From assembly GCA_017627255.1 (NCBI GenBank), contig JAGAHD010000009.1:1-51414 (forward strand): a stretch of 51,414 bases of DNA, written 5' to 3'. The DNA comes from Bacteroidales bacterium. Lineage in GTDB: Bacteria; Bacteroidota; Bacteroidia; Bacteroidales; UBA932. Position numbers and translations under genes: made by a program. This document shows, piece by piece, positions 17,733-30,669 of the stretch. Positions within the stretch are counted from its first letter, which is position 1. Every line of letters starts with the position of its first letter. The notes under the pieces were generated by a model. That model made no database searches. It saw nothing but the letters and a program-made list of their open reading frames with translations, and was not told the origin of the DNA.

Positions 17733-17816
17733 GCGCGGATGGCGGAATTGGTAGACGCGCTACTCTCAGGAGGTAGTGTCCGAAAGGACGTGTCAGTTCG
17801 ACTCTGATTTCGCGCA
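17733..17816 (+). tRNA. tRNA-Leu, anticodon CAG
   Basis: 84 nt without CCA. The acceptor stem GCGCGGA pairs with TTCGCGC (one wobble), the discriminator is A, the anticodon loop CTCAGGA gives CAG, and there is a long variable arm (GTCCGAAAGGAC), as expected of a class II tRNA. CCA is not encoded. Confidence 0.96.
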
Positions 17817-20569: not shown

Positions 20570-20641
20570 GGCCCGATAGTTCAACGGATAGAACGGAAGT
20601 TTCCTAAACTTTAAATAGAGGTTCGATTCCCCTTCGGGCTA
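20570..20641 (+). tRNA. tRNA-Arg, anticodon CCT
   Basis: 72 nt without CCA. Acceptor GGCCCGA pairs with TCGGGCT (one wobble), the D stem is GTTC/GAAC, the anticodon loop TTCCTAA gives CCT, and the T loop is TTCGATT; the T stem has one A-C mismatch. No promoter is visible directly upstream (a 6-bp hairpin sits at 20548-20565), so it is probably transcribed with yceD-rpmF and processed. Confidence 0.92.
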
Positions 20642-22156: not shown

Positions 22157-22756
22157 CTAGGCGTGCCTTCCGAGCAGCTCCTCCTGAAGGTCTGTCAACG
22201 TGATGTCCATCAAGTTGTTGAGGACGAGCAGGTGGTACAGGAGGTCTGCCGCTTCGTAGCGGTAGCGCTCCCGGTTGCCTGCGACGGCCTCGATTACGGT
22301 CTCGACGGCCTCTTCGCCGACCTTCTGGGCGGCCTTGGCAGGTCCTTTCCGGAAAAGGGAGACCGTATAGCTGCCTTCCGGCATCTCCTCCCGCCGCCGG
22401 CGCACAAGGTCTTCCAGTGCATGCAGAAAGCCTTCCGAAGCGGGCGTGTCGAAGCAGGAGGTCGTGCCCCGGTGGCAGGCGGGTCCGTCCGCCCGGGCCA
22501 GGATGAGCAGGGTGTCCGCATCGCAGTCTGCCCACATGTTTTCCACATGCAGGTAGTTCCCGCTGGTTTCCCCTTTGGTCCAGAGGGCGTTCCGGCTCCG
22601 GCTCCAGAAGGTGACGAGCCCGGTGTCCAGAGTTTTCTCAAAGGCTTCACGGTTCATGTATCCGAGCATGAGGACTTTCCGCGTAACGGCGTCCTGAATG
22701 ATGGCGGGAAGCAGCCCGTCGCTGTTTTTCTCAAGGTTGAATTCGCTGAATTTCAT
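22157..22756 (-). CDS. hisI: bifunctional phosphoribosyl-AMP cyclohydrolase / phosphoribosyl-ATP pyrophosphatase
   Basis: 199 aa from ATG 22756, chosen because it gives the usual MKFSEFNLEKNSDGLLPAI start and an ATGA overlap with hisF; a longer frame upstream is Arg-rich hisF antisense-like noise. The HisI domain (1 to about 110) has the metal-binding WADCDADTL and CHRGTTSCF. The HisE domain (about 113-199) has GSYTVSLFRKGPAKAAQKVGEE (shortened family motif) and a C-terminal helix pair. It catalyses steps 2 and 3 of histidine synthesis. It is the last gene of the operon; no strong terminator was seen after it. Confidence 0.96.
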   Translation of the reverse strand: MKFSEFNLEKNSDGLLPAIIQDAVTRKVLMLGYMNREAFEKTLDTGLVTFWSRSRNALWTKGETSGNYLHVENMWADCDADTLLILARADGPACHRGTTSCFDTPASEGFLHALEDLVRRRREEMPEGSYTVSLFRKGPAKAAQKVGEEAVETVIEAVAGNRERYRYEAADLLYHLLVLNNLMDITLTDLQEELLGRHA

Positions 22757-23511
22757 ATTGTTCTGATGGCTATGCCCCTTTCGGAAAGGGCTTGTTTCAA
22801 GACGGGGATGGTAATTTCGCCGTAGTGGAAGATGCTGGCGGCGAGGGCGGCGTCCGCGCCGCCTTCCGTGAGGACGTCGGCGATGTGGTCGACCGTTCCG
22901 GCGCCGCCGGATGCGATGACGGGAATATGCAGTTCTCCGCAAAGTTTACGGTACGTCCCGCAGGGGTACCCGGCTTTCGTGCCGTCGTGGTCCATGGACG
23001 TGAACAGGATCTCACCGGCTCCTCTTTTCTCGGCCTCCCGGGCCCATTCGAAAAGTCCGCGTCCGGTCAGGCGGCTTCCGCCGTGGGTGGCAGCCGTCCA
23101 TCGTCCGTCCACCTCGCGGGCGTCGATGGCGACAACGACGAACTGGTTGCCGAAATGCCCGGCGATTTCGTCGATGAGGGACGGGGTCCGGAGGGCGGCA
23201 CTGTTGATGCTCACTTTGTCTGCGCCGGCTTCCAGCAGGCGGGCGGCATCCTGGAGCGAGGCGATGCCTCCTCCTACCGTGAACGGGATGTCGATCCGCC
23301 GGGAAATCTCCGTGACGAGACGGGTGAACGTGTTCCGTCCTTCCCGGGTCGCGCTGATGTCCAGGTAAACGAGTTCGTCTGCGCCCTCGCGGGCATAGCG
23401 TGCGCCGAGTTCCACGGCGTCTCCGGCATCCCGGAGTTCCTCGAAACGGACGCCCTTGACGGTTCTCCCGTCTTTTACATCGAGGCAGGGGATGATTCGT
23501 TTGCAGACCAT
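22753..23511 (-). CDS. hisF: imidazole glycerol phosphate synthase, cyclase subunit
   Basis: 252 aa, family length. It begins MVCKRIIPCLDVKDG, with the catalytic Asp11, and carries the second catalytic Asp in VVAIDAR (about 130) plus TVGGGIAS and IASGGAGT phosphate-binding loops. With HisH it makes IGP and AICAR from PRFAR. The start overlaps the hisA 3' end by 37 bp, the longest overlap inside the operon, and the stop overlaps hisI by 4. Confidence 0.97.
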   Translation of the reverse strand: MVCKRIIPCLDVKDGRTVKGVRFEELRDAGDAVELGARYAREGADELVYLDISATREGRNTFTRLVTEISRRIDIPFTVGGGIASLQDAARLLEAGADKVSINSAALRTPSLIDEIAGHFGNQFVVVAIDAREVDGRWTAATHGGSRLTGRGLFEWAREAEKRGAGEILFTSMDHDGTKAGYPCGTYRKLCGELHIPVIASGGAGTVDHIADVLTEGGADAALAASIFHYGEITIPVLKQALSERGIAIRTI

Positions 23512-24209
23512 AAGGCAATGTCTTCCAATGAAATGCGGCTTTCATAAATGGCTTTTCCCACGATGGCGCGGGGAATGCCGGCGTCGTCGAGTGCGCGGAG
23601 GTCGTCCATCGAACCGATGCCGCCGCTGGCTGTCAGGACAAGGTCGGGGAAGCGTTCGCCCAGCTGCCGGTACAGGGGGATGTCCGGCCCTTTGAACGTG
23701 CCGTCCCGGGCAATCTGTGTAACGATGGCTTCCCGGATGGAAGGGAATGCTTCCAGCAGGCCGAAAATATCCTTACCGGAGTCCCTGAGCCAGCCATGGG
23801 TGGCGACCTGCATGCCGCGGACATCTGCCCCGAGCACGAGGCAGCCATAGGATGCCGACCAGCGGAGGAACCGTTCCGGATCCCGGACGGCAAGGGTGCC
23901 GCAGACGATATGGCCGGCACCGGCCTCCAGGGCGGCTTCGATATCGCGCTCAGACTGGATACCGCCGCCCCATTCGATGTCCAGGTCCGTCCCGGATGCG
24001 AGTTCCTTCAGGACCTCCAGGTTCATGGGACAGCCGGCTTTCGCTCCGTCCAGGTCGACGACGTGGATGCGCCGGATGCCGGCTTTACGGAACTGCAGCG
24101 CCATTTCCAGGGGGAGGGATGAATAGGTGGACTGGCGGGAGAAATCGCCTTGGGTCAGTCGGACACAGCGTCCTCCGATCAGGTCGATGGCAGGAATAAT
24201 CAGGGTCAT
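23475..24209 (-). CDS. hisA: ProFAR isomerase
   Basis: 244 aa. It isomerises ProFAR to PRFAR. It begins MTLIIPAIDLIGGRCVRLTQGDF with catalytic Asp8, and the phosphate loops are EWGGGIQS and TASGGIGS; VTQIARDGT replaces the usual T-DxxxDGT motif in part. It is paralogous to hisF and directly upstream of it. The C-terminal tail (SANESSPASM) runs 37 bp into hisF. Confidence 0.96.
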   Translation of the reverse strand: MTLIIPAIDLIGGRCVRLTQGDFSRQSTYSSLPLEMALQFRKAGIRRIHVVDLDGAKAGCPMNLEVLKELASGTDLDIEWGGGIQSERDIEAALEAGAGHIVCGTLAVRDPERFLRWSASYGCLVLGADVRGMQVATHGWLRDSGKDIFGLLEAFPSIREAIVTQIARDGTFKGPDIPLYRQLGERFPDLVLTASGGIGSMDDLRALDDAGIPRAIVGKAIYESRISLEDIALWSANESSPASM

Positions 24210-24790
24210 AGGCTGAGGAAATTCTGGAGGATCTTAGCCCCGGCGGGGCCGCTTTTCTCTGGGTGGAACTGAGTGCCGGAAAAGTTACCGTGCTGCAGGA
24301 TAGCGCTGAAGGGAATGCCATGGACGCTGACGGCGGCGGTGTCCGGACTGATTTCGGCATAGAAGGAATGGACATAGTAGGCGAAGACGGGATCGGTGAG
24401 TCCCTCCAGGAGGGCGCATCCCTTTCCCTCAACGGTGTTCCATCCCATGTGCGGAACCTTGATTCCGTCCGGGATGAATCGCTTTACCTCCGCATCAAAG
24501 ACCCCGAGGCCATCCACGTCCCCTTCCTCGGTGTGGCGGCACAGGACCTGCATGCCCACGCAGATGCCGAGTACCGGCCGGGTCAGGGAAAGGAGGACCT
24601 CGGCGAGGCCGCTCCGGCGAAGACTCTCCAGGGCGACGGAAGCATCACCGACGCCGGGCAGGATGACTTTGTCGGCGCTCCGGAGAATCTCCGGATCCGC
24701 GCTCAGCCTCACTTCTCCGGCTCCGATGCGTTCCAGGGCATGGAGTACCGAGCGGACGTTTCCCGCTTCATAGTCGACAACGGCGATCAT
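24206..24790 (-). CDS. hisH: imidazole glycerol phosphate synthase, glutaminase subunit
   Basis: 194 aa, class I glutamine amidotransferase. The nucleophile elbow is PVLGICVGMQ (Cys about 78), the oxyanion region is PGVGD, and the catalytic His and Glu are in FSGTQFHPEKSG near 180. It supplies ammonia to HisF. It overlaps hisA and hisB by 4 bp each. Confidence 0.97.
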   Translation of the reverse strand: MIAVVDYEAGNVRSVLHALERIGAGEVRLSADPEILRSADKVILPGVGDASVALESLRRSGLAEVLLSLTRPVLGICVGMQVLCRHTEEGDVDGLGVFDAEVKRFIPDGIKVPHMGWNTVEGKGCALLEGLTDPVFAYYVHSFYAEISPDTAAVSVHGIPFSAILQHGNFSGTQFHPEKSGPAGAKILQNFLSL

Positions 24791-25902
24791 AGGGAACCCT
24801 TGCTGCTGGGGATCCGGTCTCCTTCCCGGCGGACGGCCTCGCCGATGGCACGGGCAAATGCCTTGAAGACCGCTTCCGCAAGATGATGGTTGTTTCCGCC
24901 CCTGGCCGAAATGTGGAGGTTGGCCTTCAGGGCGGCCCCGAGGCTCTGGAACACATGCCGGAACATTTCGGTGGGCGTGTCCCCGACATATTCCCGGGTG
25001 AACGGAACGTCCCAGGCGAAGTCGATGCGCCCGCCAAGGTCAAGGAGGACCTGGGCGTCACAGTCGTCCATCGGCAGGGCGAACCCGTAACGGCGGATTC
25101 CCCGCCGGTCTCCCAACGCTTCCAGCAGGGCTTCCCCGAGGGTGATGGCCGTATCTTCCATGGTGTGATGCTCATCAATGTCGAGGTCCCCTTCCGCTTC
25201 GACCTGGAGGGCGATGCCGCTGTGGTGGGGGATTTGCTGGAGCATGTGGTCGAAGAAACGGAGTCCGGTGCGGATGGACGAATCCATCCTGCCGTCCAGG
25301 TCAACGGCAACCCGGATCCGGGTTTCGCGGGTTTCCCGGACCCGGACACTGCGCCGGATGCCCCGGCGGAGGAATTCGGCCGCTTCATCCCACCGGAGGG
25401 TGATGAGTTCGCATGGGAGACCTGCTTCGCGGACCAGGGGGATCCCCTTTTCCGGGTTCATCAGCAGGATGGCCTTCGCCCCGAGATTCGCCGCCAGCTG
25501 TACATCGCTCAGGCGGTCGCCGATGACAAAGCTTTCCGCCAGGTCGCAGGAACCGTCCAGATAGGCCGTGAAGAGCCCGGTCCCGGGTTTTCGGGTCGGG
25601 GCACGGTCTTCGGGGAAAGTGGTGTCGATCAGCTCGTCATCAAATCGGATTCCTTCTCCTTGAAGCGTTTCCAGCATGAGTTGATGCGGCGGAAGGAATG
25701 CCTCTTCGGGGAAGGCAGGTGTGCCGAGACCGTCCTGGTTGGAGGCCAGGACCAGCCGGTAAGGAAGCGAGCGGAGGACTTTGAGCGCTCCGATGACACC
25801 CGGGACGAAATGGAATTTGGCGAGTGAATCAACTTGTTCGTCCTCCGGTTCGCGGAGGATGGTGCCGTCCCGGTCGATGAAAAGGGCTTTATACGTTGTC
25901 AT
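24787..25902 (-). CDS. hisB: bifunctional histidinol-phosphatase / IGP dehydratase
   Basis: 371 aa, the fused form. The N-terminal HAD phosphatase (1 to about 165) has DRDGT with the nucleophile Asp10 and acid Asp12. It then carries an extra stretch before the IGP dehydratase domain (about 185-371), which has FFDHMLQQIPHHSG, DIDEHHTMEDTAI and the closing GGNNHHLAEAVFKAFARA metal-binding motif. It does steps 6 and 8 of the pathway. It overlaps hisC by 14 bp. Confidence 0.97.
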   Translation of the reverse strand: MTTYKALFIDRDGTILREPEDEQVDSLAKFHFVPGVIGALKVLRSLPYRLVLASNQDGLGTPAFPEEAFLPPHQLMLETLQGEGIRFDDELIDTTFPEDRAPTRKPGTGLFTAYLDGSCDLAESFVIGDRLSDVQLAANLGAKAILLMNPEKGIPLVREAGLPCELITLRWDEAAEFLRRGIRRSVRVRETRETRIRVAVDLDGRMDSSIRTGLRFFDHMLQQIPHHSGIALQVEAEGDLDIDEHHTMEDTAITLGEALLEALGDRRGIRRYGFALPMDDCDAQVLLDLGGRIDFAWDVPFTREYVGDTPTEMFRHVFQSLGAALKANLHISARGGNNHHLAEAVFKAFARAIGEAVRREGDRIPSSKGSL

Positions 25903-26935
25903 ATTCGGTAATGGTTCTGATCAGGCGGTCATTTTCTTCAGGCGTTCCGACGCTCAGCCGCAGCGTCCCTTCGCAGCCGGGAGTGGAAGAACGGTCCCGA
26001 ACGATGATGCCACGGGTGAGGAGATGGCGGTAGAGGGCCTTGGGATCCTGCGTCCGCACGAGGAGGAAATTGGCGTCGCTCGGAAAAACCGCCAGGATGC
26101 AGCGCGTCTCCGACAAAGCGGTGGCAAGCCGGTCCCGTTCTGAGCGGATGACGGCGATTTCCCGGGCCGAACGTTCCGGATCCAGGGTCTCCAGGGCGAG
26201 TTTCAGCGTGTCGGTGCCGATGTTGTAGGGGTAGCGGACCCTGTCGAACAAGGTGACAACGCTCCGGTCCGCCCGGGCTATCCCGATTCTGAGTCCTGCC
26301 ATGCCGAAGGCCTTGGAAAGGGTCTGGAGCACGATGAGGTTCGGATACCTGGGAACAAGGGAAGCCAGGCCGGGCTGCGTGGAAAAGTCGGCGTACGCTT
26401 CATCGACGACCACCATGCCGGGGAATTCTTCCAGCAGGCGGAGGATGCCGGAGAAGGAGAGGGTGTTCCCGGTAGGATTGTTGGGGGAGCACAGGAAAAG
26501 GAGGCGGCTATGCCTGTCGCAACGCGCAAGGATCTCTTCGACCGGAAGCGAAAAACCCGTTCCGAGGGGGATGCTCCGGCTCTCTACGCCATTGATGTCA
26601 GCGAGGACCCGGTACATTCCGTAAGAGGGGGCAATCATCAGGGCATTGTCCACTCCGGGCCGGCAGAAGACCCTGTAACAGAGATCGATACATTCGTCGC
26701 TGCCATTTCCGAGGAAGGTCTCCTCGGGCGGGAATCCCTTGAAGGAGGCAATCTTTTCCAGCAGGCACCGGCGGAGGGCGGCCGAAGGGTATCGGTTGAG
26801 TCCGTTTCCGAACGGGTTTTCATTGGCGTCCAGCAGGATGCCGGGCGTGCCTTGATACTCATCCCGGGCGGTCGAGTACGGTTCCAGCGAGCGGATGTTG
26901 TCGCGAACCAGGTTGAGGATGCAGTCAGGTTTCAT
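25889..26935 (-). CDS. hisC: histidinol-phosphate aminotransferase
   Basis: 348 aa, PLP-dependent fold type I. The substrate-binding N-terminus has ILLDANENPFGN, the PLP phosphate region LGNGSDECIDL, the Asp in VVDEAYADF, and the Schiff-base Lys in LQTLSKAFGMAGLRIG (about 213). It converts imidazole acetol phosphate to histidinol phosphate with glutamate. It overlaps hisD by 4 bp and hisB by 14. Confidence 0.97.
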   Translation of the reverse strand: MKPDCILNLVRDNIRSLEPYSTARDEYQGTPGILLDANENPFGNGLNRYPSAALRRCLLEKIASFKGFPPEETFLGNGSDECIDLCYRVFCRPGVDNALMIAPSYGMYRVLADINGVESRSIPLGTGFSLPVEEILARCDRHSRLLFLCSPNNPTGNTLSFSGILRLLEEFPGMVVVDEAYADFSTQPGLASLVPRYPNLIVLQTLSKAFGMAGLRIGIARADRSVVTLFDRVRYPYNIGTDTLKLALETLDPERSAREIAVIRSERDRLATALSETRCILAVFPSDANFLLVRTQDPKALYRHLLTRGIIVRDRSSTPGCEGTLRLSVGTPEENDRLIRTITEYDNV

Positions 26936-28218
26936 AGGCGGATGCGGACGGCTTCGGCATGGGCGTCCAGTCCTTCGGCCCGTGCCATTTGGGTAATGGT
27001 GCCGCTGAGGCGGCGAAGTCCTTCTTCAGAAAGATGCTGCCAGGTGACGGCGTGCATGAAACTTTCGGTCCCGAGACCGCTCCAGGCTGCGGCAAGTCCG
27101 GCTGTCGGCAGGGTGTGGTTGGTGCCGCTGGCATAGTCACCGGCACTTTCCGGGGAATAGTTGCCGAGGAAAATGCTTCCGGCCGCCGTAATTTTCCCGG
27201 CGGCTTCCTCGGGATCCTGGACGGAAAGGATGAGATGTTCTGGGGCATACCGGTTGGCAAAGGCGAGCTGGTCGTCCCGGTCGGGGAGGATGACGATGCG
27301 GCTGTGGGAAAGGGCCTGTTCCACGATGGTTTCCCGGGGGAGAAGGCTCTTCTGGCGGAGCAGTTCCGTCTTGACGGCTTCCGCGAAGAGGGTGTCGCTG
27401 CAGACCAGGATGGCCTGGCTGTCGGGCCCATGTTCCGCCTGGGAGAGAAGGTCGGCCGCCACGAAGGCGGGACAGGCGGTCCTGTCAGCGACAACCATGA
27501 CTTCGGAAGGACCGGCAGGCATGTCGATGGAGATGCCTTCCTGTGAGACGAACTGCTTGGCCTTTAATACATAACGGTTTCCGGGCCCGAAGATCTTGTC
27601 TGCTTTCGGAACCGTTTCGGTCCCATAGGCAAGGGCGGCTATAGCCTGGGCCCCTCCGATTTTGAAGACCGTGTCAACACCACAGGTCCGGGCCGCATGC
27701 AGGATGGCCGGTGCAATGGATCCGTCCCGTCCCGCCGGGGTGCAGAGGATGCGTTCCCGGCAGCCGGCAATGCCGGCCGGGATGGCAAGCATCAGAAGGG
27801 TAGAGAACAGGGGAGCGGAACCGCCGGGGACATACAGTCCGACGCGTTCCACCGGAATGAACCGCCGCCGGCAGACGATACCGGATCCGTCATCCCAGAC
27901 AACCTCCTGCGGTTTCTGGAGGGTATGGAAGGCGGCGATACGGTCGGCCGCCTCCTGGATCGCTTCCTTCAGGGGGGCGGGAACCGCTTTTTCAGCGGCG
28001 TCGAATTCGGTCTCCGTGACCTGGATGGGATCGGGGACGCGTCCTTCGACGGCGAGGATGATTTCCCGCAGTCCTTCGTCTCCGCACTCCCGGACCGTCC
28101 GGAGAATCCGTCGGACGGTGGCATCCACCGCCCCGTCGTCGGGAAGGCTGCGCCGGACGAGGGCTTCCCACTCCGGCCTTGCTGGTTGGATGAACTGTTC
28201 CATATCAGGCGACGACAA
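26932..28218 (-). CDS. hisD: histidinol dehydrogenase
   Basis: 428 aa, family length. It is zinc- and NAD-dependent and does the last two oxidations to histidine. Motifs: VPGGSAPLFSTLLMLAIPA, GGAQAIAALAYGT, DMPAGPSEVMVVAD, SQAEHGPDSQA (with catalytic and metal residues) and SAGDYASGTNHTLPT near the C-terminus. It overlaps hisG by 14 bp. Confidence 0.98.
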   Translation of the reverse strand: MSSPDMEQFIQPARPEWEALVRRSLPDDGAVDATVRRILRTVRECGDEGLREIILAVEGRVPDPIQVTETEFDAAEKAVPAPLKEAIQEAADRIAAFHTLQKPQEVVWDDGSGIVCRRRFIPVERVGLYVPGGSAPLFSTLLMLAIPAGIAGCRERILCTPAGRDGSIAPAILHAARTCGVDTVFKIGGAQAIAALAYGTETVPKADKIFGPGNRYVLKAKQFVSQEGISIDMPAGPSEVMVVADRTACPAFVAADLLSQAEHGPDSQAILVCSDTLFAEAVKTELLRQKSLLPRETIVEQALSHSRIVILPDRDDQLAFANRYAPEHLILSVQDPEEAAGKITAAGSIFLGNYSPESAGDYASGTNHTLPTAGLAAAWSGLGTESFMHAVTWQHLSEEGLRRLSGTITQMARAEGLDAHAEAVRIRL

Positions 28219-29056
28219 TGTCCAGGTTGAGGATCAGAAGCCCCTCAGCCCCGATCTCCTTGAGTTTTTCGACAGTATCCCACAGCGTGGCCTCTTCCAC
28301 GACCGTATGGACGGAACTCCATCCTTCGGCGGCGAGGGGCATGATGGTGGGGCTGCGCATGGCGGGCAGAAGCTCCAGGACCTTGCTGATCTGCGGGGTG
28401 GGAAGGTTCATGAGGATGTATTTCTTGCCCCGGCTTTCCTGGACGGCGTCGACCCGGAAGAGAAGGGATGAGAGGAGCGCCTGTTTTTCGGGAGACAGGT
28501 TTTCGCGGCCGATGAGGACCGCTTCGCTCACAAACACGGATTCCACCTCCCGGAGTCCGTTGGAAACCAGTGTCCCACCGGAGGAAACGATGTCGAAGAT
28601 GGCGTCGGCAATGCCGGCGGCCGGTGCGATTTCCACGGATCCCCGGATTTCCCGGATGACGGCCTGGATGCCGTTTTCGTCCAGGAACTTTTTCAGGATA
28701 CGGGGATAGGACGTGGCGATGGAGCGTCCCTCGAACCAGCTCCTGCCGGGATAGACGACCGATTTGGGAATGGCGAGAGACAGGCGGCACCGGCCGAAAC
28801 CAAGCCGGCGCAGGATGCGTACGGGTGCTCCTGTTTCCGCTGTTTCGTTGAGGCCGACGATTCCGATGTCGGCGGCCCCGTCCGCAACGACACCCGGGAT
28901 GTCGTCATCCCGGAGATACAGGACTTCAAGGGGGAAATTGGCGGCCTTGCCGAGAAATTTCCGTTTGGCGTCGTCTACCAGGATGCCTGTGTCCTGGAGG
29001 AGCCGGAGACTGTCTTCGTTGAGACGGCCCTTGGATTGGATGGCGAGTCTGATCAT
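28205..29056 (-). CDS. hisG: ATP phosphoribosyltransferase, long form
   Basis: 283 aa: the long HisG with a C-terminal ACT-like domain (about 210-283) that senses histidine, so no HisZ is needed. The first pathway step joins PRPP and ATP. The N-terminus is MIRLAIQSKGRLNEDSLRLL and the PRPP-binding part is IFDIVSSGGTLVSNGL. It is the first enzyme gene and lies 14 nt after the U tract of the attenuator. Confidence 0.97.
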   Translation of the reverse strand: MIRLAIQSKGRLNEDSLRLLQDTGILVDDAKRKFLGKAANFPLEVLYLRDDDIPGVVADGAADIGIVGLNETAETGAPVRILRRLGFGRCRLSLAIPKSVVYPGRSWFEGRSIATSYPRILKKFLDENGIQAVIREIRGSVEIAPAAGIADAIFDIVSSGGTLVSNGLREVESVFVSEAVLIGRENLSPEKQALLSSLLFRVDAVQESRGKKYILMNLPTPQISKVLELLPAMRSPTIMPLAAEGWSSVHTVVEEATLWDTVEKLKEIGAEGLLILNLDIVVA

Positions 29057-29069
29057 GTTCGTTTTATAT

Positions 29070-29105
29070 AAAAAAACAAGGTTTGCCGGTCACGGGCAAA
29101 CCTTG
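29070..29105 (-). terminator. his operon attenuator (intrinsic terminator before hisG)
   Basis: Minus strand perfect 11-bp stem CAAGGTTTGCC / GGCAAACCTTG (29105-29095 with 29087-29077), 7-nt loop, then seven T. It lies between the leader peptide and hisG, so full transcription needs readthrough. ACCTT at about 29133-29129 can pair with AAGGT of the 5' arm, a candidate antiterminator. Confidence 0.93.
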
Positions 29106-29147
29106 CTGATGTTTCTGGAGGAGGGAAAAGGTCACATCATACACCGG

Positions 29148-29207
29148 TTACCGGACCGCAGGGCCAGGGCAAGGATGGTGGTGATGATGATGGTTTTTCC
29201 GGTACAT
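29148..29207 (-). CDS. hisL: his leader peptide with six consecutive His codons
   Basis: 19 aa: MYRKNHHHHHHPCPGPAVR, then TAA. The six His codons (CAT CAT CAT CAC CAC CAT) at 29192-29175 lie about 80 nt before the terminator hairpin, the layout of the E. coli his leader. Shortage of charged tRNA-His should stall ribosomes there and favour the antiterminator. The start codon is 8 nt after the promoter -7 box, so the leader RNA is almost leaderless. Confidence 0.92.
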   Translation of the reverse strand: MYRKNHHHHHHPCPGPAVR

Positions 29208-29215
29208 ATCGCTCA

Positions 29216-29245
29216 CAAAGATAGGGATAATTCCTGTAAATGCAA
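29216..29245 (-). promoter_or_regulatory. his operon promoter
   Basis: Minus strand TTG (29245-29243), 19-nt spacer, TATCTTTG (29223-29216), placed just before the leader peptide. Confidence 0.87.
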
Positions 29246-29262
29246 GAAAATCAGCAAAAAAA

Positions 29263-30600
29263 TCAGATCCGGTAGACATTCTTCCCTTCCAGGTACTGTT
29301 CCTGCACCTGGCTCATGGCCGTGAGTTCCCTTTCCGTCAGCTTGGAGAAGAACCAGCCTTCCGTGAGGACGCAGCTGACGAATTCCTTGATCTCGTAGCG
29401 GAGTCCTTCTCCCATGAAGGGATAGAAGAATTTCTTGTTGCGGTTCTGGTCCTCGAACCGAAGCTCGAAATAGTCCGTTTTCCACCAGGGGGCGGGGACA
29501 TACACATATCCCCGGGTGCCGGAGATGACCATGTTCCCTTCGGTTTTGACGCCGAGGCCGACCTGGAAGGACGCGACGGCGTTGTCATACAGGAAGACCG
29601 CCTTGGTATACATGTCCACTCCGTTTTTCATCTTGGAGTAGAAATTGATGTTCCGCCACTGGGTGCCCAGGAGCTTGAAGATGGGAAGGAGCGGGAAGCA
29701 GGCGTTCTCGTTCATGCTGCCGCCGTAACGCGTGCTGTCCAGCTTTTCGGATGTTTCATCCGTGAGGGTCGTAATGGAGGCGTTGACTTCGACGATCTCA
29801 CCGATCTCGCCCGATTTCAGCAGGGAGACCAGGTGACCGAAAGCCGGGCAGTAAGCGGTCTTGTGGGCCAGCATCAGCACCAGATTGCGCCGGCGGGCGG
29901 TTTCAAGCAGCTGCTCAGCCTCCTTCCGGTGGAGGACGAACGGCGTTTCGCAGAGGACATGCCGGCCTGCCTCCAAGGCACGGCGGGCATATTCGTAATG
30001 CGTATAATGGGGCGAGGCGATGTACACGGCGGTACAGCGGGAGAACAGTTCGTCCAAGCTGGCGGCGGGCGTGAGTCCCCGCTCTTCGCAGAACGTGTGG
30101 CACTGCGCGCTGTCGGGGTTGTAGGCGGCCGTGAGGAACAGGCTGTTCACGTAGCGGGCTTCATCCGTGAAACGGCGGGCGATACTGCCCGTCCCGATGA
30201 TTCCAATCTGCACGGAGGGGCGCTCTTCCCGGAGCAGGGTGCTGGAAATCCCTTCGGTACGGGGCAGGTAGACGACTTCGCAGTATTCCTTGAGGTAGTC
30301 GAACCGCCCTTCCCAGTCGGACCCGATGGCGAAGATGTCCACCCCGTATTTCTGGATGTCGTCAATCTTCTGTCCCTTGTACTCCTCGATGATGATCTGG
30401 TCCGCATATCCCGTGGCTTTGACCGCCTCGATGCGTTGCATGACGTTGTCGCAGGTGTTCATCTTCCCGCGTTCGAGGTCGAAATTGTCGGTCGTCACCC
30501 CGACGATCAGCCAGTCGCCCAGTTCCCTGGCGCGCCGCAGCAGGTTGATGTGGCCCTGGTGCAGGAGGTCGAACGTGCCGTATGTGATGACTTTTTTCAT
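29263..30600 (-). CDS. TagD-like cytidylyltransferase fused to a Gfo/Idh/MocA-type domain
   Basis: 445 aa from ATG 30600 (MKKVITYGTFDLLHQGH); an upstream in-frame ATG at 30639 would overlap the promoter. Residues 1 to about 130 closely follow glycerol-3-phosphate cytidylyltransferase: HQGH nucleotidyl-transfer motif, GSDWEGRFDYL, YLPRTEGISST. The rest is a Rossmann oxidoreductase fold beginning IGIIGTGSIARRF. Two residues normally used for catalysis are changed: the EKP motif reads CETPF (Lys to Thr), and the His in the later GxxxDxGxH region is absent (NENACFPLL). So the first half is probably active in making a CDP-polyol or similar, and the second may be non-redox or structural. It is a single gene; no glycan cluster surrounds it. 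Confidence 0.82.
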   Translation of the reverse strand: MKKVITYGTFDLLHQGHINLLRRARELGDWLIVGVTTDNFDLERGKMNTCDNVMQRIEAVKATGYADQIIIEEYKGQKIDDIQKYGVDIFAIGSDWEGRFDYLKEYCEVVYLPRTEGISSTLLREERPSVQIGIIGTGSIARRFTDEARYVNSLFLTAAYNPDSAQCHTFCEERGLTPAASLDELFSRCTAVYIASPHYTHYEYARRALEAGRHVLCETPFVLHRKEAEQLLETARRRNLVLMLAHKTAYCPAFGHLVSLLKSGEIGEIVEVNASITTLTDETSEKLDSTRYGGSMNENACFPLLPIFKLLGTQWRNINFYSKMKNGVDMYTKAVFLYDNAVASFQVGLGVKTEGNMVISGTRGYVYVPAPWWKTDYFELRFEDQNRNKKFFYPFMGEGLRYEIKEFVSCVLTEGWFFSKLTERELTAMSQVQEQYLEGKNVYRI

Positions 30601-30636
30601 GGCGGGACCGGTCCCCGGGGAGAAGGAACCGGAAAA

Positions 30637-30669
30637 CAAAGGTACAACATCCGTGCGGAAAAAGCAAAA
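30637..30669 (-). promoter_or_regulatory. promoter of the cytidylyltransferase fusion gene
   Basis: Minus strand TTTTG (30669-30665), 20-nt spacer, TACCTTTG (30644-30637), 36 nt before the start codon. Confidence 0.75.

Follow-up and report, generated by a model that had tools for sequence, protein, structure and literature searches.

The his attenuator of enterobacteria places a leader peptide with a run of histidine codons, together with alternative protector, antiterminator and terminator structures, ahead of hisG of a complete his operon. Classical attenuation needs a ribosome that follows close behind RNA polymerase. Bacteroidetes/Chlorobi are said to have been listed by Vitreschak and co-workers (2004) among the groups with candidate attenuators. 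In the Bacillus cereus group, Eubacteriales and Erysipelotrichales, his leaders have been described with three to five consecutive His codons, a terminator and an antiterminator (PMC9413887). Work on F. psychrophilum has reported strong clues that amino-acid operons are preceded by attenuators of the leader-peptide type, along with structured 5′ elements before pheA and hisG that also occur in other Flavobacteriaceae genera and have no Rfam matches (PMC9723704). Small ORFs reminiscent of attenuation leaders have been noted in B. thetaiotaomicron, in an article whose available text does not contain the word 'histidine' (PMC7366714), and an article on his genes in Bacteroidota, in whose available text 'leader' is absent, treats attenuation in S. 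enterica and E. coli (PMC8305728). In leaderless polycysteine ORFs of mycobacteria, a codon run at the 5′ end of the RNA governs downstream expression (Canestrari 2020, as cited in PMC9031893). A phylum-wide account of Bacteroidota his attenuators was not found in open-access literature listings.

The locus described here lies in a stretch of 51,414 nucleotides from a Bacteroidales bacterium (the window). Positions 29223–29070 of its minus strand very probably form a ribosome-mediated attenuator that controls transcription of the his operon, a reading reached from sequence and comparison. Judged by its predicted anatomy it belongs to the his-attenuator class, but not to the Rfam His_leader family (RF00514), which scores 14.7 bits in the window against a gathering cut-off of 49 and has no matches in the loci of 20 relatives. 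Rfam membership at a permissive threshold was considered and rejected, the best match being Thr_leader with 20.8 bits against 55, and no T-box match was found, either in the window at gathering or among 11 weak matches in 28950–29350. The arrangement is that of the enterobacterial architecture claimed in the preliminary description, with a His run in a short leader and predicted protector, antiterminator and terminator alternatives before hisG of a complete operon, but there is no Rfam His_leader match, the promoter is of Bacteroidota type, Shine-Dalgarno-like 4-mers precede only 8 of 192 leaders, and the predicted 5′ UTR is 3–4 nt long.

The other systems differ in host and scope. With the attenuators of PMC9413887 the locus shares consecutive His codons and a probable attenuator with predicted terminator and antiterminator before his operons; unlike the present case, those hosts are Gram-positive, the abstract names Proteobacteria and new Gram-positive groups, and 'Bacteroidetes' is absent from the text of that paper as available. 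The F. psychrophilum elements belong to the same phylum and precede the same two genes, hisG and pheA, but the reported cases come from Flavobacteriaceae genera (PMC9723704), whereas here leader, terminator and antiterminator were counted across Bacteroidota, especially Bacteroidales. Like the reported mycobacterial polycysteine ORFs, the leader is a short reading frame with a run of codons for a single residue and is predicted to lie at or near the RNA's 5′ end; unlike them, it encodes His rather than Cys, occurs in another phylum, is near-leaderless by prediction only and is followed by a predicted intrinsic terminator. The kind of regulation is thus already known; the present comparison adds its extent, the matched candidate antiterminator and the predicted near-leaderless start.

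The his locus and its leader

Read 5′ to 3′ on the minus strand, the order is promoter, leader ORF, about 40 nt, hairpin with seven T, and hisG-D-C-B-H-A-F-IE (Table 1). All eight his genes are present in the same direction and each has the expected NCBIfam model as its best match in a profile search, seven above cut-off and HisA below its curated cut-off, so that the complete operon proposed to stand behind the leader is borne out. The source assembly comprises 2.16 Mb in 185 contigs, of which the window is contig 22, and is 73.75% complete; the closest named HisG relatives that were found belong to uncultured Bacteroidales, in many cases of ruminant gut origin. The predicted switch would serve histidine supply in gut and rumen bacteria. 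The gene upstream of the leader (29263–30639, minus strand), judged by eye from its translation, appears to join a cytidylyltransferase-type domain to a downstream oxidoreductase-type domain in a single ORF, and the window also holds two tRNA genes (17733–17816 and 20570–20641, plus strand).

Table 1. Features of the his locus in the window, with the pheA leader of the same genome
Feature	Position	Strand	Basis and remarks
-33 TTG of predicted promoter	29243..29245	-	sequence; 19-nt spacer to box also commonest in relatives (60 matches)
-7 box TATCTTTG (consensus TAnnTTTG)	29216..29223	-	sequence and comparison
Predicted transcription start, 5′ UTR 3–4 nt	29210..29211	-	box-to-start spacing in F. 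johnsoniae and F. psychrophilum
Leader ORF MYRKNHHHHHHPCPGPAVR, 19 codons	29148..29207	-	ATG 29207 to TAA 29148
Six consecutive His codons CAT CAT CAT CAC CAC CAT	29175..29192	-	sequence
Predicted protector hairpin	29135..29189	-	ribosome-free fold; His-codon RNA 29189–29177 paired with 29145–29135
Region 2, predicted antiterminator 5′ strand, overlaps leader stop codon	29134..29157	-	stalled-ribosome fold; relatives
Region 3, predicted antiterminator 3′ strand, includes terminator 5′ arm	29088..29112	-	stalled-ribosome fold; sequence
Predicted intrinsic terminator, hairpin and seven T	29070..29107	-	-18.3 kcal/mol; pattern scan; covariation
hisG	28205..29056	-	TIGR00070, 177.9 bits, above cut-off; ATG at 29056
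hisD	26932..28218	-	TIGR00069, 497.8 bits
hisC	25889..26935	-	TIGR01141, 308.7 bits
hisB, bifunctional	24787..25902	-	NF003937, 460.9 bits
hisH	24206..24790	-	TIGR01855, 192.7 bits
hisA	23475..24209	-	TIGR00007, 212.3 bits, best match; cut-off 228.95 not reached
hisF	22753..23511	-	TIGR00735, 321.7 bits
hisIE	22157..22756	-	NF002747, 251.6 bits; start codon provisional
pheA leader MRFYDFGFSFIYYLAR, Phe/Tyr-rich	L294:1365-1415		box gap 21 nt; hairpin -18.3

The hairpin with seven T just before hisG is present as first reported, with 11 base pairs formed by 29105–29095 and 29087–29077, a loop of 7 nt and the T tract at 29076–29070; a pattern scan gives it 13 pairs (29107–29075). Terminator-like sites within 2 kb around the leader are not above chance in number (3 against 2.4 in shuffles), and the leader hairpin has the most pairs of the three, 13 compared with 11 for the same hairpin on the opposite strand and 8 for the remaining site. 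In an alignment of the window with 11 relatives the terminator covaries, none of 500 shuffles scoring as high.

Conservation of leader, terminator and promoter

For comparison, hisG matches were taken from genomes of the family (181 of 398 with a match), the order (168 of 344) and the phylum (288 of 345), with 80 named contigs in addition. The sample is not uniform: it consists of the best-scoring loci per search, 80 loci picked from the order and phylum lists so as to cover each family or genus about once, and 40 more family loci, for which every second entry was used in part of that list; genomes with a hisG match too weak for listing were left out, and a few of the order and phylum loci are nearer kin. 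From 289 loci, 4 with less than 120 nt upstream and 31 that repeat the last 120 nt of another were removed, leaving 254 distinct regions.

A His-rich leader was defined as an ATG ORF no longer than 60 codons that lies in the 320 nt before hisG and has at least four His in eight residues. Such a leader is found in 192 of these 254 regions, compared with a single one in 1,270 dinucleotide shuffles and none in 254 reverse complements. It occurs in the window's own locus (1/1) and throughout the sample (family 54/64, named 38/53, order 54/68, phylum 45/68). The same density is reached by any other residue in at most 12 of the 254 regions. In a further 23 loci the leader has three His, and a terminator is present in 18 of these; another 39 loci fall below three His by the ATG rule, some of these carrying a leader with a non-ATG start. 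The six-His run ahead of hisG was thus correctly described, and the comparison with relatives' leaders that had been suggested finds His runs conserved; the leader is not a peculiarity of one Bacteroidota genome but the common arrangement among the sampled hisG loci.

A terminator was called where a hairpin with a T tract and an energy of -7 kcal/mol or lower separates the leader from hisG. By this rule 180 of the 192 leaders have one, compared with 13 of 192 mononucleotide shuffles. Among the 39 loci that lack an ATG leader with at least three His, only 8 have a terminator in the last 130 nt before hisG, and two of the eight, L070 and L242, carry a His leader with a non-ATG start, the His run of L070 sitting behind a GTG; the match in L086 falls, judged by eye, in apparent upstream coding sequence. 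It had been held that loss of the His run in close relatives that keep the hairpin would speak against an attenuator. One such case occurs among the nearer relatives, L056 (71% HisG identity), where a promoter-like box and the terminator hairpin are nearly adjacent and no His leader lies between them; the locus is either a natural deletion or an assembly error. Leader and hairpin are lost together in the named relative L033, whose HisG is 75% identical.

These counts also bear on the idea that the hairpin is the terminator of the upstream gene, the His ORF being incidental and hisG having a weak start of its own further downstream. That gene is codirectional and its stop codon, at 29263, lies 55 nt before the leader ATG, as such an idea would have it. 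Against this, the promoter box stands between the gene and the leader, leader and hairpin are kept together (180/192 with the leader, 8/39 without), and the segment past the His codons matches the terminator arm of its own locus (below), which makes this explanation very unlikely. We consider it about equally improbable that control is translational, with the leader ribosome opening hisG or reinitiating there. Leader stop and hisG start are 91 nt apart in the window, and reinitiation has been proposed for leader genes near a structural gene, but with a peak at 11–14 bp in Bacteroidetes, much shorter than here (PMC4833913); moreover, a hairpin with a T tract intervenes in 180 of 192 loci, and that of the window stops about 19 nt short of hisG and would not have to mask the start codon. 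The reading of leader, terminator and operon as a transcription attenuator, put forward in the preliminary description, is supported by the phylum-wide comparison.

After removal of 6 loci by length limits, 174 of the 180 terminator loci were used in the pairing, fold, exchange and peptide counts. The distance from leader ATG to terminator is narrow in these loci, 115–124 nt in the middle half. Their leader peptides are 13–26 residues long (5th–95th percentile) and have His as the only conserved residue, others reaching at most 21% at any offset from the last His; the His codons comprise 614 CAT and 261 CAC. Since the residues other than His are unconserved and the lengths variable, the peptides speak for a codon sensor and not for a peptide with an activity of its own. 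Alternatively, the leader could act as an arrest peptide, with the His run as a sensor of free histidine or of a metal. Six His could indeed bind metal. Regulatory arrest peptides are reported to be widespread in bacteria (PMC10987492), but the lack of conservation outside His, the variable lengths and the predicted pairing of the His-codon RNA itself with region 2 leave this proposal extremely improbable.

A promoter had been noted before the His leader, and one is present by sequence, but it is predicted to be of the Bacteroidota type, TTG-N19-TATCTTTG, and not sigma-70-like. A sigma-70 promoter scan around the leader found none, and this type was set aside in favour of the Bacteroidota consensus. 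Of the 192 leader loci, 130 carry an exact TAnnTTTG no more than 60 nt ahead of the leader ATG, compared with 62 of 1,920 shuffles. The gap from box to ATG is bimodal, at most 10 nt in 27 of the 130 and 17–23 nt in 75, and the window, with 8 nt, is in the short class. Probable F. johnsoniae promoters are reported to have 4 or 5 nt between box and start site (PMC6847099), and the box of F. psychrophilum is placed at -12 to -5 (PMC9723704). From its box, the window leader is predicted to be near-leaderless, with a 5′ UTR as short as given in Table 1. This would be unusual, because 87% of the F. johnsoniae transcripts with such a promoter are reported to have a leader of more than 10 nt (PMC6847099).

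Two variants of the box were observed. In close relatives (L005, L006, L008, L009, L011, L013, L034, L038, L040, L049 and others) TAnnTTGC replaces TAnnTTTG, 7–8 nt before the leader ATG, and resembles TAnnTTGY (SM5), a motif that F. psychrophilum is reported to have in a different class of promoters (PMC9723704). In L033, L112 and L258, which are without a His leader, an exact TAnnTTTG stands 3–6 nt before the hisG start codon, and from its position hisG itself may be leaderless in these loci.

Predicted alternative pairing

The elements from which the mechanism is built, namely the box, the His-rich frame, the hairpin with its T tract, the order of leader, hairpin and hisG and their joint conservation, are seen in the sequence and the comparison. 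The window leader folds at -47.3 kcal/mol (z -3.46). In the predicted ribosome-free fold, the His codons pair with the segment past the leader stop and the terminator is left free. With a ribosome on any of H6–H11, regions 2 and 3 are predicted to form a long helix (-20.4 to -20.8 kcal/mol in total, for the RNA up to the terminator loop) through the pairs GGUC/GACC, CGG/CCG, AACC/GGUU, UGU/GCA and UGAUGU/ACAUCA, and a ribosome at the stop codon is predicted to block this helix. The completed terminator is the more stable end state in the predicted folds even when the ribosome is stalled, and the switch would therefore have to be kinetic.

In the proposed mechanism, translation of the leader would begin on an RNA that has just 3–4 nt of 5′ UTR and lacks a Shine-Dalgarno site. 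When histidine is short, the ribosome would stall on the His codons, the antiterminator would form and the polymerase would read into hisG. When charged His-tRNA is sufficient, the ribosome would reach the stop codon and cover region 2, allowing the terminator to fold; in the absence of a ribosome, the His-codon RNA would pair with region 2 and the terminator would likewise be expected to fold.

An antiterminator formed by GACCTT and AAGGTT had been suggested previously. The GACCTT motif exists, but at 29133–29128, one base away from the 29134–29129 given for it. Pairing of the two motifs falls within the best two-strand duplex, but is absent from the stalled-ribosome folds and is not the commonest in relatives, and it was rejected as the antiterminator of the window. 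In relatives, the element is GGTARG-like, lies at or near the leader stop codon and has its partner in CTTRCC of the terminator arm. The commonest motif pairs combine GGTAGG or GGTAAG, located past the His codons, with an arm that contains CTTACC or CTTGCC. Of 174 loci, 98 have an element of GGYRRG type as well as a YTTRCC arm and 40 have neither, as raw counts with no shuffle baseline.

For the window taken by itself, the antiterminator duplex is no better than shuffles (z +0.35; 61 of 100 shuffles as good), and the stalled-state fold is no better than with shuffled region 2, its energy being matched by 64 of 500 shuffles and its arm share by 211 of 500. The first duplex test omitted bases just upstream of the arm (ACATCA); the regions were later widened, and the window remained non-significant. 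In the 12-sequence alignment of the window and 11 relatives, where the row of the window is poorly aligned in the antiterminator part, the antiterminator is 87.8% paired, with covariation not beyond shuffles (paired cells as high in 97 of 500, score in 448 of 500). The helix equivalent to the protector is 92.9% paired in the same alignment and covaries weakly, 48 of 500 shuffles being as high.

Across the 174 loci, pairing between the terminator arm and the segment past the His codons has a mean z of -2.42 relative to shuffles of that segment, and in 117 loci it beats them at the 5% level. With a ribosome on the first His codon, region 2 holds a predicted 0.79 of the arm, compared with 0.52 in shuffles (n = 174), and with the ribosome at the stop codon 0.29 compared with 0.31 (n = 174); in 28 of the 174 loci, region 2 still holds at least 0.6 of the arm at this position. 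The exchange test is the strongest result for the predicted switch. For the 86 order and phylum loci, own partners gave -1185.9 and exchanged partners -888.9 (sd 25.3), and for the 88 family, named and own loci the values were -1625.6 and -1312.8 (sd 27.0), with 0 of 2,000 permutations reaching the observed value in either set. When region 2 of the 86 loci was shuffled, the excess of own partners was gone (z -1.1, -0.1 and -0.3, against -11.2), and base composition therefore does not explain the fit of own partners. A candidate antiterminator is thus supported for the group by matched pairing in relatives, and not by the window's own sequence.

With its narrow range of spacing between start codon and terminator, a conserved his attenuator would offer a gauge of transcription-translation coupling in laboratory species of Bacteroidota. 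An open-access literature search on such coupling in Bacteroidota found no paper on the subject by title, and mRNAs of the phylum are reported to be naturally without Shine-Dalgarno sequences (PMC6847099). The comparison also provides a sequence pattern, a His run, often with a GGTARG-like element and a CTTRCC-type arm, for which no Rfam family match was found in the window or the loci of 20 relatives.

A possible variant family, and a second leader in the genome of the window

A possible variant is seen in f131, a family of another class of the phylum, in which 28 hisG loci were examined, some of them near-identical (L232, L233, L235-L237, L246-L248, L296-L315). A His-rich frame, down to four His in 12 residues, lies upstream of hisG in all 28. 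Allowing one mismatch in TTTG, a start codon is found 3–5 nt past the -7 box in 24 of 28, and in 14 it is a GTG at exactly 4 nt, the predicted +1; the in-frame start nearest to a 4-nt gap was taken, a choice that favours the +1 result. With nearly the same detector as above, a terminator was found in none of the 28 loci, and no consensus RNA structure was found for the f131 leaders. The 85 nt before hisG are instead C-rich and G-poor (0.243 against 0.079), with C outnumbering G by two to one or more in all 28 loci, compared with 1 of 180 loci with leader and terminator. Possibly, the f131 leaders start at +1, are leaderless and act as Rho-dependent attenuators, the Rho-dependent mode being a guess from base composition. 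A wider proposal, which we put forward tentatively and regard as rather doubtful, is that Shine-Dalgarno-free his attenuators extend across the phylum, with the first ribosome loading at or near the 5′ end of the nascent RNA and pacing the polymerase; f131 would then represent a fully leaderless +1 ORF in which the terminator is replaced by the C-rich, G-poor and probably Rho-dependent stretch.

A scan of the window and five other stretches of the genome for TAnnTTTG, a short ORF and a terminator gave three matches, the his leader, a pheA leader and a site at 17739–17807 of the window that falls on a tRNA and was discarded as an attenuator. The strict scan was empty on 16.5 kb with HMGL-like (leuA-type) and homoserine dehydrogenase genes, and no chorismate_bind gene was found in the source assembly, which is 74% complete. 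In the pheA leader, CCGGACA past the stop codon is complementary to TGTCCGG in the hairpin arm, and MRFYDFGFSFIYYLAR before pheA is likely, from its sequence, to be a second attenuator of this type in the same genome.
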